A stretch of DNA of 36,778 nt, from the NCBI GenBank assembly GCA_002724245.1, contig PBOG01000147.1, positions 1 to 36,778 on the forward strand, given 5' to 3'. The notes under the pieces were generated by a model. It had not been told where the DNA came from, did not search any database, and saw nothing but the letters and a program-made list of their open reading frames with translations. This document shows, piece by piece, positions 24,289 through 30,500 of this stretch (position 1 is the first letter of the stretch; each line of letters starts with the position of its first letter). This stretch comes from Planctomycetaceae bacterium (GTDB lineage: Bacteria > Planctomycetota > Planctomycetia > Pirellulales > Pirellulaceae). The position numbers and the translations under genes are program-made.

Positions 24289-26622
24289 CTACGGGGCATT
24301 GAACCGGGTCGCACTCACTTCACGAAACACGACGGTCACATCGGTTTCGGAAACCGCCAGCCACTTGCCGTCCTCAAGCGCGGTCGCGCGGATCTTGAGC
24401 TTCTGCTCCGGATAGAGCCGCGGGTCTGCCATCGTCTCAACGTGAATCGTGGCTTGCCGCTTCCCGCTGGGCACGACAACTGGAGCTGCCTTGAACAGCC
24501 CACCCACATCGTCAGCGGCAACGACTTCGAGCGTCACCGCTTCGGCAAATTTGGGTCTGCGCAAAATGTCGACAGTGACCTCGAAGTTACCGCCAGGCGA
24601 AGCCGTAATTTCAGCATCCCGGCCGTCGACTTTCATCAGCGCCCCTTCCACAATCCAACACAAACGCCCGGACTTCGCCTGTACATAGCGTACGTTTCCC
24701 TGGGCGTCAGCCATTTTTGCCATGGCCAGAACCACCATCCGGGAGGTGCGAAATGTCTCTAGCCACTCTGGAATGAACACTGGGTAGAGAATTCGATCAA
24801 CACCACGGGGAACCTTCATGATCGGCCCAGTAATCCCCTGACGGTGGCGTGATTGCTTCGAATGGGGCATCAGCCAAATCTCACCGTCGTAACCCTCTTG
24901 CCGCTTGATTTCGAGCTCTGCTGGGAAAGTGCTACCCCGGGGACGCTCATGCTGTGTCTCTCTCAGGACCCAGGCGATCGTAATCGGAACCTTGCTGATA
25001 ATTGGGGTCAACAGCACGGAGGTGAGGAGTCCTGTATCGGTCACGGCCACACGAGTCAAGGAAACATCACCACGCTTCCCAGTCCCCACGACACGGACGT
25101 ACCCAGTGGTCGCACTGCAATCGGCGGCGGCAGTCAACTCGAACTTGAGTTCGGCCTTGCCAGCCGGAACCACAAGATCCGCAGGCACGCTCACGCCTTG
25201 GGGAAGTCCCTCGATCCCAATCGCGACGTCACCATCGTACCCATGGAGCCGGGCCAACTTGACTGTGACGCTGGTCTTGCCGCCAGGCTCAAAATTCAAG
25301 GTCTGCGGCACCGAGAGGGAAAAATCTGCGAGCGGTGGAACCGTGACAACCAGGCGGTAAACCGAAAGGGGAGTCCCCACTTGAGCGGAAATGTCACTGA
25401 CGACAATCGTGTGCGGACCAGCGGCGGTCGACTTGAACGTCAGCGTACAATCTCCCGGCTTATCGTCCTTCACGATTTCGGTGCCATCCGGAGCAAGCAC
25501 CCTTAAAGTTGGATCGAGCGGAGACCCCAGTGACGCTGCCTCGACGGCGATTTCCCAACTGTCTCCCGCCTGCATCTTCACCGTGTAACGATCCTCCGCA
25601 CCGACTTCCCCGAGCGTTCCATTGATCACTACGGGACCAACGATCTCCGTACGTTCCTGCTCGACGACCTCGTCGGTATCGCGCAGGGGAAATCGAACCA
25701 GCGCGGTGCCTGCTGCTGTGTCCAAGCTATACGAAAACGTGGCCACCTCCTGGTTCGGAAAATCAACCTTCCTGGTGATCGTTTGGAGCGCGGGCGAATC
25801 GCCCTGAAGGCCGTAACCGATGAACTCGACGTCGCAGGAATGCCCTCGTCGGCCAGTGACTGGTCGGGTCATAATGACACGTGGACCGAGTGAAAGGCGC
25901 AGCGCATAGACGAAGGCCTGGTTACCACGAAATTGAACATCAAACACCTTCAGAGAATAGACTTTGCCGGCCTTCACTGCGAAAGTTAGCGCAATATCTT
26001 TTCCCTCCAAGTCCACCGCGTCACCAAGTCGCCGATCTCCGCCACTCTCATTGACTTCGATAGCACCTGTCATCAAAGATCCAATTTGATGGGTGATCAG
26101 TTCCGCAGTGACAAAACCTTCCTGCGCGGCAACAAACTGATATTCATCGATCTCGGCGATCTTCCCGAGTCGTGCCGCGACGGTAACAGGTAGCGTGTCC
26201 AGCGTCTGAGGGGAATCGCGCCGTCGTTTTTCGACCACGATGTTGCCCGCTTCGACCAGGAAAGGAACGCAACGGCTCGCGCCACCCGCATTGGCAACCT
26301 GCCAATAGGCACTGCCGGATAAGTTGCCAGGGGCGACATGGATCTGCGCTGGCACCTCCCGTGGAATCGGGAACGCGGCCCGCATCGACTTTTGTCCAAA
26401 CCAATAGGGTGGCGGGGCTACAACAAATTTGCCCGGTGGGCCCATTTTCGTGATCGTCACCTGCGGATCGGGAGAAAAGAACTCCACATCGGGTGTGAAC
26501 TCGTAACCACCGAGCTGCACTTCTGTCACAACACCCGCGGGCACCACCGGCGGATACATGTAACCGGCAGAGGGCGCCTCACCCAACAGCGCGCAGGCCA
26601 GCGTAATGACGGTCAAATTCAT
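24289..26622 (-). CDS. Large secreted beta-sandwich protein (PPC-like domains)
   Basis: A 777-residue protein whose ATG overlaps the stop of the preceding DUF1501 gene by four bases (ATGA), so translation is probably coupled. MNLTVITLACALLGEAPSAG is a signal peptide. The chain is a series of beta-sandwich domains: a first domain with GYEFTPDVEFFSPDPQVTI, then PPC-like (pre-peptidase C-terminal) units, the clearest at about residues 340-430 (GTLGEVGAEDRYTVKMQAGD, SPLDPTLRVLAPDGTEIVKD, AGPHTIVVSD), then Ig-like segments (about 450-770; LARLHGYDGDVAIGIEGLPQ). No protease or other catalytic domain is present. PPC domains usually accompany secreted enzymes, but planctomycetes encode long enzyme-free versions beside DUF1501 genes. 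A binding or scaffold role outside the cytoplasm is inferred. Confidence 0.87.
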   Translation of the reverse strand: MNLTVITLACALLGEAPSAGYMYPPVVPAGVVTEVQLGGYEFTPDVEFFSPDPQVTITKMGPPGKFVVAPPPYWFGQKSMRAAFPIPREVPAQIHVAPGNLSGSAYWQVANAGGASRCVPFLVEAGNIVVEKRRRDSPQTLDTLPVTVAARLGKIAEIDEYQFVAAQEGFVTAELITHQIGSLMTGAIEVNESGGDRRLGDAVDLEGKDIALTFAVKAGKVYSLKVFDVQFRGNQAFVYALRLSLGPRVIMTRPVTGRRGHSCDVEFIGYGLQGDSPALQTITRKVDFPNQEVATFSYSLDTAAGTALVRFPLRDTDEVVEQERTEIVGPVVINGTLGEVGAEDRYTVKMQAGDSWEIAVEAASLGSPLDPTLRVLAPDGTEIVKDDKPGDCTLTFKSTAAGPHTIVVSDISAQVGTPLSVYRLVVTVPPLADFSLSVPQTLNFEPGGKTSVTVKLARLHGYDGDVAIGIEGLPQGVSVPADLVVPAGKAELKFELTAAADCSATTGYVRVVGTGKRGDVSLTRVAVTDTGLLTSVLLTPIISKVPITIAWVLRETQHERPRGSTFPAELEIKRQEGYDGEIWLMPHSKQSRHRQGITGPIMKVPRGVDRILYPVFIPEWLETFRTSRMVVLAMAKMADAQGNVRYVQAKSGRLCWIVEGALMKVDGRDAEITASPGGNFEVTVDILRRPKFAEAVTLEVVAADDVGGLFKAAPVVVPSGKRQATIHVETMADPRLYPEQKLKIRATALEDGKWLAVSETDVTVVFREVSATRFNAP

Positions 26623-27986
26623 ACCAGCAGCTCTTCAAACACCTGCCCACCGTTAACAATCGACACAGGTCGCCCAACGTCGGTGTAGACAAGTTTGTTG
26701 TAGTCGATTCCCATGAGATGAAAGATTGTTCCCAGAAAACTCTGGTTCGTCATCGGAGTTGTTGTCGGCGCCGCAGCCGTCGCGTCCGACCCACCAATCA
26801 AAGCACCTCGCTTGACGCCACCGCCGGCAAAGATCGCAGTCTGCAGGATGTGGTGGTCACGGCCAGCGTTCTTGTTGATTTTCGGAGTTCGTCCCATTTC
26901 GCCCACCATGACGACCAGCGTATCGTCAAGCATGCCGCGTTCATCAAGATCCGTCACGAGCGTAGCCAACGCGCTGTCTGCGCTCGGCGCCAATACCTCG
27001 TGGCCAGTGAAATTATCGAAATGGGTATCCCAACTGCCGTGCTCCACACTGATAAAACGACACCCGGCCTCCACAAGGCGACGGGCCAGCAAGGCGCATT
27101 GGCCAAGCTGGTGGTATCCGTAACGCTCTCGCAACGCTTCAGGCTCTTCGTGGATATTGAACGCCTTCTTGGCCTGCGGCGAGGTGACCATACTGAAGGC
27201 CTTCTCATAATACGTCGACATGATCGCCGAACGTCCCGACAACCCAGGAGCGTTTTTGCCACCGGCCAAGAGCCCCTTAGAGCCGAGCTGGTCGATCCGT
27301 TGAAGCATGCGACGCCGTCGATCAAACCGCTTCTCATCAATCGCCGTCTTGGCCAGATTCAGGTCGCGGACCTCAAAATCAGGCTCCACCGGATCGGTTT
27401 CAATCACAAAGGGTGCATACGACGGACCATAAAAACCTGGCCCTCCCGCAACCGACTGATTCGGCACACAGATGTAAGGAGGTACCGCGCCTCGCGGCCC
27501 AAGCTCGCGCGAAATCACTGAACCGAGAGAGGGATAGAGTTCATTGGCGGGGGTCTTCTTGGCTTGTCCATCTGCGAAGTTAGGCGGATAGCCAGTCAGT
27601 AGCCAATGGACACCGGTCTGGTGCGCGCCATCACCCAATGTGGCACTGCGAACCATCGTGAACTTGTCCGCCACTTTTGCACAGCGTGGCATCAGTTCGC
27701 CAATCAGCGTGCCAGGTACGTTAGTCGAAATGGGATTGAAAGGCCCACGAATTTCACTGGGCGCATTCGGTTTAAGATCCCACATATCGATGTGGCTCGG
27801 ACCTCCTTCAAGCAGCAGAAAGATACAGGCCTTGGCCTTGCCCGGCAGCGCCGCCGGAGCCTGATCGGCCATCGCCAACAAGTGTGGCAGCGAGAGCCCT
27901 CCCAGCATACCGGTTCCACCGATCTTGATGGCCCGTCTACGTGAGATACCGTCGCAGTACCCAGATCCCGAGCTGGCTGTACTCAT
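26619..27986 (-). CDS. DUF1501 family exported protein
   Basis: A 455-residue protein from the ATG at 27986; AAAGGGAG lies 9 bases upstream, and a TTG at 27995 is the alternative. The N-terminus has a Tat signal, CDGISRRRAIKIGGTGMLGG, followed by the family motifs LLLEGGPSHIDMWDLKP, NAPSEIRGPFNPIST, FISVEHGSWDTHFDNFTGHE and GEMGRTPKINKNAGRDHH. DUF1501 proteins belong to the alkaline phosphatase/sulfatase-like superfamily; the Asp, His and Glu residues in these motifs may hold metal ions, but no activity is proven for the family. The DUF1549/1553 gene lies upstream on the same strand, the usual planctomycete pair, and the PPC-like protein gene overlaps its stop. The region before the start carries a 16-bp tandem repeat and a small upstream frame. 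Confidence 0.94.
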   Translation of the reverse strand: MSTASSGSGYCDGISRRRAIKIGGTGMLGGLSLPHLLAMADQAPAALPGKAKACIFLLLEGGPSHIDMWDLKPNAPSEIRGPFNPISTNVPGTLIGELMPRCAKVADKFTMVRSATLGDGAHQTGVHWLLTGYPPNFADGQAKKTPANELYPSLGSVISRELGPRGAVPPYICVPNQSVAGGPGFYGPSYAPFVIETDPVEPDFEVRDLNLAKTAIDEKRFDRRRRMLQRIDQLGSKGLLAGGKNAPGLSGRSAIMSTYYEKAFSMVTSPQAKKAFNIHEEPEALRERYGYHQLGQCALLARRLVEAGCRFISVEHGSWDTHFDNFTGHEVLAPSADSALATLVTDLDERGMLDDTLVVMVGEMGRTPKINKNAGRDHHILQTAIFAGGGVKRGALIGGSDATAAAPTTTPMTNQSFLGTIFHLMGIDYNKLVYTDVGRPVSIVNGGQVFEELLV

Positions 27987-28051
27987 CGTTCCCAACTCCC
28001 TTTCTCAATTAATCGGCATCGCCCTTTAGTGGCATCGCCCTTTAGTGGCAT
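27983..28051 (-). other. 22-codon upstream ORF ending on the DUF1501 start codon
   Basis: An ATG inside the third repeat unit opens a frame MPLKGDATKGRC followed by RLIEKGSWER, and its TGA overlaps the DUF1501 ATG as ATGA. It has AAAGGG in front, though only two bases from the ATG, which is close for a ribosome site. The other repeat units start frames of 13, 7 and 4 codons that stop inside the region. It could be a leader frame that couples translation, or a by-product of the repeat. Confidence 0.3.
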
Positions 28052-28078
28052 CGCCCTTTAGTGGCATCGTCGTTTAGT
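28015..28078 (-). repeat. 16-bp tandem repeat, four units
   Basis: Three identical copies of GGCATCGCCCTTTAGT (plus strand; 28015-28030, 28031-28046, 28047-28062) are followed by a fourth with two changes (GGCATCGTCGTTTAGT, 28063-28078). The last unit reaches into the stop codon and final His codon of the DUF1549/1553 gene, so the array probably grew from that gene end. On the minus strand each unit reads ACTAAAGGGCGATGCC and so holds a stop (TAA), a purine-rich AAAGGG and an ATG. Confidence 0.95.
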
Positions 28079-30500
28079 GAACGTACAGGAACCGCTTCGA
28101 ATTGAGCAGCGTCCAGAGAACGTCTTCTGTTGCCGTCCTGCGATCCTGTTGCGTGAACACCGGAAGCAATGAATCCTGCTCTGCAGCGCTTGGAAAACGA
28201 GACAGCGTCGCGAGGAAAACTTCCGTGATGATCTGTTGAGGAGTCTTACTGGAATTGGCCAAAGAACGAGCAAATCCGTGACGATGGCCAATCTTCCTGG
28301 CAAACTCCGGCGAGTTCATTACGTACAGCGCCTGCGCAATACTCGGTTCGGTACCACGCTCACATTCACAAACGCTCAGTCGCGCGGGACGACCGAAAAT
28401 ATCGAAAAAGTAGGAAGGGACATGGTTATCCCACAATTGGATCGCGCGATATCCCACAGGCCAGCCATTAAACTTCTCCGGCACCCGTGTTACCTGGCAG
28501 ATCGCATCGAGGAGCACTTCCGCTGGCATCGGCTTGTAGCTGGCATGTGAGTAATTCTGCTGGTCACGGACATTTGATTCATTGGGCACCGAACTCAGCG
28601 CATACGCACCCGACAACAGCAGCGTGCGCGTAAAAGCCTTGATGTCATAGTCCAGGTCACGCAGATGTGCTGCCAGTGCATTGAGCAGAGGCTCATTGGT
28701 CGGTGGGTTCGTCTCGCGCTGATCATCGATATCCACAAAAATGCCGCGACCAAAATAGTGTGCCCAGAGTCGATTTACGATGAGCCGCGCGAACAGCGGA
28801 TTGTCCGGAGCGGTCATCCAATCGACGAGGACCTCGCGGCGGTCCAGCGTGCTGCTGAAATCCGCCGGTGCGGCACCCAAGGCAGCCGCTGGTACGGTTT
28901 CCTTTTCGCCCGTCGTCAAGAATTGGTTTTCGAGATCTTTTCCCGCAACCGGTACCAGGTTGGGGCCTTGGGTCGCGACGCCAGTGAAAAAACCACCGAA
29001 GGCGTAGAAATCACGCGGATTCCAGCGTTCCGATGGGTGCTGGTGGCACTTCGCGCAGCCGAGACGGACTCCCAGAAACAATTGGCTCACCGCAGGGCCG
29101 AGCTCCTCACCCAGCGCCTGGTAAACGGGTACCGCGCTGGCAGCGGCGATCGTCCCCTTGGCAGTCAATATATTGCGTACGAATTGGTCATAGGGCACAT
29201 TCGCACTGAACTGTTGCCGCAACCACCGACTAATCGCGACCGCATTTTGGGGGCCGATACGTGCCGAGTCGACTTTGAGAATATCGGCCCAGCGCATCGC
29301 CCAGTAGACTGCATACTCGTCTCTTTGAAGCAGTCGGTCTACCAGCAGCTCGCGTTTCTTCTCGGCGGTATCCTGGAGGTAGGCGCGCGATTCCTGGGCA
29401 GTGGGCAAGGTCCCGATCGTGTCGAGGAAGACCCTCCGCAAAAACATGCCGTCATCGGCAGGACCACTGGCGGCAATGCCGAGGCGCTCCAGTTTGTCCC
29501 AGACCAGCTTGTCCACAAAACCGTTTTCAGGCGGTCGCTGGAAGGCGGTACCGGGTTGCGGCACCGTCACACGGCAAACGGAAACGTGCCCCATATACTT
29601 CACCAGAATGGCAGCCTCACCTGGGACATCCGACGAATCAACACGTCCCATGGGTTCCACACCGGCAACTTGCGGCACATTCGATTCGTAGACGGCGTCC
29701 ACGGTCACGCAGCGACGATCACCATCACGATCGACTGCGGTGACGCGTAGTTGCTGCGTTTGCTGGAAAGAAAGCACCACATCTTTCGGCTCGATTTCGA
29801 TGCGTACGACTGGTGGTGGAGACACGCCTTCGTAACTGGCACCTTCGCGGATCCAACGGGCGATCAGGTTGTAACCCGCGCTTCCCGGCTGAATTCGCGG
29901 ACCTCCGCTATGCGGAACAATTCCCGCCGCTTTGCGGAGAAAGAGACTGTCCAACGGACGGGCAATCGCCACGCGCCGCCCACGCGCCCCCTTCACGATT
30001 GCTTCGTAATCTCCCACCGGGTCAAAGTTGAACACACTCAACTGAAAACCATTCTGCCCGCCCTGCTTTCCGTGGCAGGAAGAAGACATACAACCGGCCT
30101 TGTTGAGGACAGGTAACACCTCGTCGCGAAAAGAGACGAGCGGTGGACTGGTATAACGTGTCACATCTACTGGAATCTCAACCCGGTCTTCACCGTCAAC
30201 AACGACGATACGGGTTTGGCCGTCTCCTCGCGGCGCCACGACGCCGCGTTCGTCGACGACGGCGACGGCCGGATCGAGGGACTGGAATTGAACGTCATGC
30301 GTCCGATCTATCAGAAGCTCCCCCTGGGCAGCACGGCTCACGAGAAGCTGCGTGGACGAATTGGGATGATCAAAAGTCACCGCGTCCGGGCGCACCACCA
30401 GCGCAGCACCGAAACTCACTGTACCGGCCAGGGAGACCCCCACCGCAACTGCGATACAGAGCAAATTACAACGGGCCGCGTTGTTCCAATGGATGTTCAT
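28074..30500 (-). CDS. DUF1549/DUF1553 cytochrome-like secreted protein
   Basis: An 808-residue protein with an ATG at 30500 and a signal peptide (NLLCIAVAVGVSLAGTVSFG). Residues about 32-110 form an Ig-like (BIG2 type) domain. A haem-type motif C-M-S-S-S-C-H-G (about 136) has three residues between the cysteines instead of two. A second Ig-like domain (about 240-330) follows, then DUF1549 (about 340-540; FVDKLVWDKLERLGI, RRVFLDTIGTLPT, RWADILKVDSAR) with CAKCHQHP at about 480, and DUF1553 (REVLVDWMTAPDNPLFARLI, NRLWAHYFGRGIF) to the C-terminus. These proteins are hallmark planctomycete secreted proteins of unknown function. The DUF1501 gene follows 87 bases downstream. A perfect 13-base inverted repeat lies before its start, in the region shared with the divergent DUF1501 gene. 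Confidence 0.93.
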   Translation of the reverse strand: MNIHWNNAARCNLLCIAVAVGVSLAGTVSFGAALVVRPDAVTFDHPNSSTQLLVSRAAQGELLIDRTHDVQFQSLDPAVAVVDERGVVAPRGDGQTRIVVVDGEDRVEIPVDVTRYTSPPLVSFRDEVLPVLNKAGCMSSSCHGKQGGQNGFQLSVFNFDPVGDYEAIVKGARGRRVAIARPLDSLFLRKAAGIVPHSGGPRIQPGSAGYNLIARWIREGASYEGVSPPPVVRIEIEPKDVVLSFQQTQQLRVTAVDRDGDRRCVTVDAVYESNVPQVAGVEPMGRVDSSDVPGEAAILVKYMGHVSVCRVTVPQPGTAFQRPPENGFVDKLVWDKLERLGIAASGPADDGMFLRRVFLDTIGTLPTAQESRAYLQDTAEKKRELLVDRLLQRDEYAVYWAMRWADILKVDSARIGPQNAVAISRWLRQQFSANVPYDQFVRNILTAKGTIAAASAVPVYQALGEELGPAVSQLFLGVRLGCAKCHQHPSERWNPRDFYAFGGFFTGVATQGPNLVPVAGKDLENQFLTTGEKETVPAAALGAAPADFSSTLDRREVLVDWMTAPDNPLFARLIVNRLWAHYFGRGIFVDIDDQRETNPPTNEPLLNALAAHLRDLDYDIKAFTRTLLLSGAYALSSVPNESNVRDQQNYSHASYKPMPAEVLLDAICQVTRVPEKFNGWPVGYRAIQLWDNHVPSYFFDIFGRPARLSVCECERGTEPSIAQALYVMNSPEFARKIGHRHGFARSLANSSKTPQQIITEVFLATLSRFPSAAEQDSLLPVFTQQDRRTATEDVLWTLLNSKRFLYVH

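Follow-up and report, generated by a model that had tools for sequence, protein, structure and literature searches.

The 16-bp tandem array that separates a DUF1549/DUF1553 gene from a DUF1501 gene in the window, by which we mean the whole stretch of 36,778 nucleotides of planctomycete DNA analyzed here, is very probably a private intergenic minisatellite that arose by slippage or tandem duplication and has no selected role, with the short upstream reading frame (uORF) that it completes a by-product. The original prediction had offered two readings, a neutral slippage product and a device that tunes translation of the DUF1501 gene relative to its partner; the evidence favors the first and leaves the second unsupported.

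Results and Discussion

The upstream gene (28074..30500, minus strand) encodes 808 aa with PSCyt2 (DUF1549) and PSD1 (DUF1553) domains and has the C-terminus ...VH*, with its stop at 28076-28074, while the DUF1501 gene (26619..27986, minus strand; 455 aa) starts with an ATG at 27986-27984, leaving a spacer of 87 nt between the two. An alternative in-frame TTG is found at 27995, 9 nt before this ATG, and if it were the true DUF1501 start then the ATGA overlap discussed below would be meaningless. Downstream of the DUF1501 gene a 777-aa reading frame (24289-26622, minus strand) gave no Pfam match at E 0.001. The DUF1549-DUF1501 gene pair is widespread in relatives, and the DUF1501 family is very large in the host genome, with at least 127 matches when 127 of 361 first-look candidates were scored; because the window's own DUF1501 gene is absent from the 127 listed, the family must be larger still.

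TRF places a period-16 tandem array at 28015-28079, with 4.1 copies, 95% matches and a score of 116 that is the highest among the 16 rows obtained for the window. On the minus strand unit 1 (28064..28079) reads CACTAAACGACGATGC, with two differences from the remaining units, which are three exact 16-bp copies of CACTAAAGGGCGATGC (28016..28063; units 2, 3 and 4 at 28048-28063, 28032-28047 and 28016-28031, respectively). The unit matches the window 4 times at up to 3 mismatches versus 0.28 expected, and none of 100 shuffled windows reached 4 matches, which puts the array far above chance expectation. Four units between the two genes had been predicted and four are indeed present, but the first straddles the stop of the upstream gene, so that what the array takes in of that gene is one sense codon, the last (CAC, His), and the stop, rather than several codons; the rest of the array is outside both annotated frames. 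In the same manner, the ATG predicted for each unit is found in all four, but the AAAGGG motif is present in only three, unit 1 reading AAACGACG instead. Between the array and the DUF1501 start there remain 28 nt of spacer (27987..28014, minus strand), including a GGAG that begins 13 nt before the ATG.

The four ATGs start at 28067, 28051, 28035 and 28019 and open frames of 13, 22, 8 and 4 codons, respectively. The second of these frames (27983..28051, minus strand), for which we have computed background rates, ends in a TGA at 27985-27983 that overlaps the DUF1501 ATG as ATGA, confirming the predicted overlap. The associated claim that at least three units are needed holds in silico, as modelled arrays of 1 or 2 units have no ATGA-ending uORF and those of 3 to 8 units give an identical 22-codon uORF. 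Since a period of 16 puts a unit ATG into all three frames, one of them always matches the TGA frame of the ATGA. When the array was kept and the 28-nt tail shuffled, an ATGA-ending uORF was obtained in 37% of trials, random tails of 26-31 nt gave 53-56%, and the rate fell to 9% when the array was shuffled as well. The array raises the chance of a uORF, yet no selection is needed for that, and in the presence of such an array the uORF is not very surprising and can be regarded as a frequent by-product.

It is very unlikely that the array instead builds a regulatory uORF, such that ribosomes start in unit 2, terminate at the ATGA and re-initiate on the DUF1501 gene, with three or more units turning the system on and fewer turning it off. 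The frame is present as described, three units are required for it, and coupled translation is known to operate through ATGA overlaps (PMC6728339, PMC10666635). However, units beyond three leave the frame unchanged, and a ribosome-binding motif at normal spacing was not found before the unit-2 ATG. An AAGG begins 7 nt upstream of it, whereas the Shine-Dalgarno (SD)-like tetramers of 111 host DUF1501 genes mostly begin 10-14 nt before the ATG, with distances of 5, 6 or 7 nt in 0 of these 111 sampled genes. The GGAG before the DUF1501 ATG, at 13 nt, is within the usual range, so this start can recruit ribosomes by itself. A GGAG, GAGG or AGGA at -18 to -5 is found in 35 of the 111 DUF1501 genes (background 8), and starts lacking an SD motif are thus common in the host genome. 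Judging from these signals, the 22-codon frame is probably not translated efficiently; it is probably not a functional gene.

Nor is there a link of such features with DUF1501 genes in the host sample, a set of 1.19 Mb made up of 65 stretches (1.16 Mb, L146-L210) picked around DUF1501 genes plus the window, in which gene calls and starts are rule-based. Of 111 DUF1501 genes, 2 (the window gene included) have an array within 200 nt before the start (at least 3 copies, period 7-30, score of at least 80), versus 6 of 515 other genes, and lowering the score threshold to 40 gives 3 DUF1501 genes versus 10 others. An ATG uORF of at least 8 codons that ends on ATGA precedes 9 of 109 DUF1501 genes (again including that of the window) versus 35 of 485 others, so that these frames are no commoner before DUF1501 than before other genes. 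A 14-bp repeat of 4.9 copies is found at positions 10-78 of a stretch at a contig end (L172, host contig C89), some 80 nt upstream of another DUF1501 gene.

Conservation is lacking as well. A dimer of the unit, searched with up to 3 mismatches in 395 genomes, was found in one only, the host itself, and was absent from the other 394. Within the host genome the unit (up to 2 mismatches) occurs as the four array units and as one single site on contig C235; at 3 mismatches there are 47 further sites, and because a reversed control pattern gave 112 matches the sites at 2-3 mismatches outside the array are to be taken as background. The suggestion that the same array might precede other DUF1501 genes of the host was checked and not borne out, the array being confined to one place in the genome.

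We have also compared 84 related loci (L039-L095, L097, L120-L145), of which 45 distinct ones were kept, each with a DUF1549 gene followed by a DUF1501 relative that is at least 55% identical; the remainder were dropped as duplicates (21), for low identity or a late N-terminal match (10), for want of an upstream DUF1549 gene (7) or of an ATG (1). The best ortholog outside the host genome is 66% identical and the best within the genus 61%. Orthologous spacers range from 8 to 443 nt with a median of 48 (n = 45, with fewer than 45 independent spacers as near-identical pairs such as L064/L066 and L056/L063 are included), and 0 of the 45 contain an ATG uORF of at least 8 codons ending on ATGA. The missing uORF is weak evidence, since only 4 of the 45 relatives have an ATGA start. 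Other, unrelated tandem repeats are carried by 3 of the 45 spacers. In two loci, L041 (17 bp × 1.9) and L076 (15 bp × 1.9), tandem duplications extend across the stop of the orthologous DUF1549 gene, with units that resemble neither one another nor that of the window, and in L093, from another planctomycete MAG, three unrelated heptamer arrays with the units GTTTTCG, GGCAGTG and GAGAGTA lie side by side and fill the 128-nt spacer. With the array in 1 of 395 genomes, the uORF in 0 of 45 spacers, no enrichment at DUF1501 genes and a misplaced SD motif, the proposal of translational tuning is not supported. We consider it very unlikely, too, that slippage of the array, with a period not divisible by three, makes and removes a coupling uORF or a relay of start codons and in this way provides a switchable dose of DUF1501 versus its partner.

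Spacers with direct repeats can look like operator arrays, and the repeat could in principle be an array of protein- or RNA-binding sites that controls the operon internally. Such a role is highly improbable here. Apart from the lone site on C235 the unit, at up to 2 mismatches, is restricted to this array, and the other non-coding arrays in the host sample have different units, as judged by eye. A search against Rfam gave no match, no promoter- or terminator-like site was found, and the RNA fold is ordinary, being no better than that of shuffled sequences (z -0.99).

A stepping-stone relay, in which ribosomes leaving the upstream gene re-initiate at ATG1 and then at ATG4 and so reach the neighborhood of the DUF1501 start, has less still to recommend it and can be given hardly any credence. 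The positions permit it, as ATG1 is 6 nt past the upstream stop, its frame ends at 28028-28026 and ATG4 is 6 nt further. PMC10666635 reports, for six gene pairs, that coupled re-initiation drops steeply as genes move apart and that ∼20 nt almost abolished it; since very short distances are needed, a relay could bridge the 87-nt spacer. However, the last hop would be 18 nt, and the spacers of relatives are often more than 20 nt long without any array.

Tandem repeats are plentiful in the host genome. With a score of at least 80, at least 3 copies and a period of up to 60, the 1.19 Mb of host sequence contains 23 arrays, of which 15 are mainly non-coding with periods of 11-21 and units that differ from one another by eye. 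Two genomes of the same genus show similar densities, with 6 non-coding arrays in 0.33 Mb and 5 in 0.39 Mb, while of four smaller samples taken in other genera only one (G014, 4 in 0.10 Mb) has any non-coding array and the other three have none; plentiful arrays are thus not a feature of the whole order. Among 636 sampled host genes 9 have a tandem repeat (period 10-60) across the stop codon, the array of the window being the highest-scoring of the nine, as do 4 of 602 genes from these six other genomes. By distance from the stop, the number of host genes covered by a repeat is 0-2 at each coding position sampled (-280 to -20), reaches 9-11 between the stop and +60, and is 0-7 farther downstream; because this profile is uncorrected for the non-coding share at each distance, the increase past the stop is evidence of tolerance and not of a special mechanism.

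Arrays also accumulate where contigs end. In the host sample, whose stretches often begin or end at contig ends, 9 of 61 contig termini carry an array within 130 bases, versus 2 of 1300 random internal stretches; eight of these nine arrays have periods of 12-21 and one a period of 39, and at least one is in coding sequence. The results suggest that the host assembly breaks at arrays, in particular longer ones. An assembly error in the unit number, either a longer array that was collapsed or copies that were added, might be suspected from these figures, but with an array that is short (65 bp) and inside its contig this has next to no likelihood.

Our explanation remains that of a private minisatellite generated by mutation. 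We infer that a tandem duplication of 16 bp across the DUF1549/1553 stop codon was followed by further copying, with slippage during replication or unequal recombination the probable cause, and that the array grew toward the DUF1501 gene. The extra copies would add 48 nt to a spacer otherwise of 39 nt, a length inside the range of the relatives, and would land between the stop and the region where ribosomes bind ahead of DUF1501, so that both proteins are left intact and the array can be tolerated, presumably as neutral sequence. A duplication that contains a stop adds copies after the stop, and the pile-up of repeats just past stop codons is what tolerance predicts. The 22-codon frame would follow from a period of 16, with ATGs in all frames, in front of a gene that starts with ATGA, and is probably little used or unused. 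The presence of three exact units beside a diverged one could alternatively reflect recent selection for the copies.

The array can be compared with known systems. Minisatellites are defined in PMC6749651 as head-to-tail units of 10-200 nt in at least four copies, and the array of the window, with a 16-nt unit in 4.1 head-to-tail copies, falls within this definition; it is non-coding as well, except where it covers the final sense codon of the upstream gene and the stop that follows. It resembles the prokaryotic satellites and minisatellites with repeats of 10-30 nt described there both in these respects and in that its unit was not found as an array elsewhere. It differs from what the survey describes in barely reaching the minimum of four repeats, in straddling a stop codon and in happening to complete a uORF; array counts given here rest on other criteria than those of the survey, so that the numbers are not comparable. 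In Salmonella, according to PMC8092293, a translation-aborting ORF located ahead of the gene for a Mg2+ transporter controls that gene, and the window likewise has a short frame between two co-directed genes, although this frame is without conservation and its translation and effect are hypothetical. Finally, the uORF and the gene after it overlap stop to start in a -4 nt arrangement, as in the ATGA termination-reinitiation pairs covered in PMC10666635, but the partner is a repeat-made frame of 22 codons that has no well-placed ribosome-binding motif, rather than an established gene.

Concluding Remarks

As a regulatory element the array probably matters little. When the period of an array is not divisible by three, start codons are supplied in all frames, and a uORF that ends on a downstream start is then likely and not remarkable. 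Private tandem repeats of the host genome gather immediately past stop codons and at contig ends, which cautions against reading regulatory meaning into such repeats, and these arrays would be ready markers for strain typing if their unit number varies.
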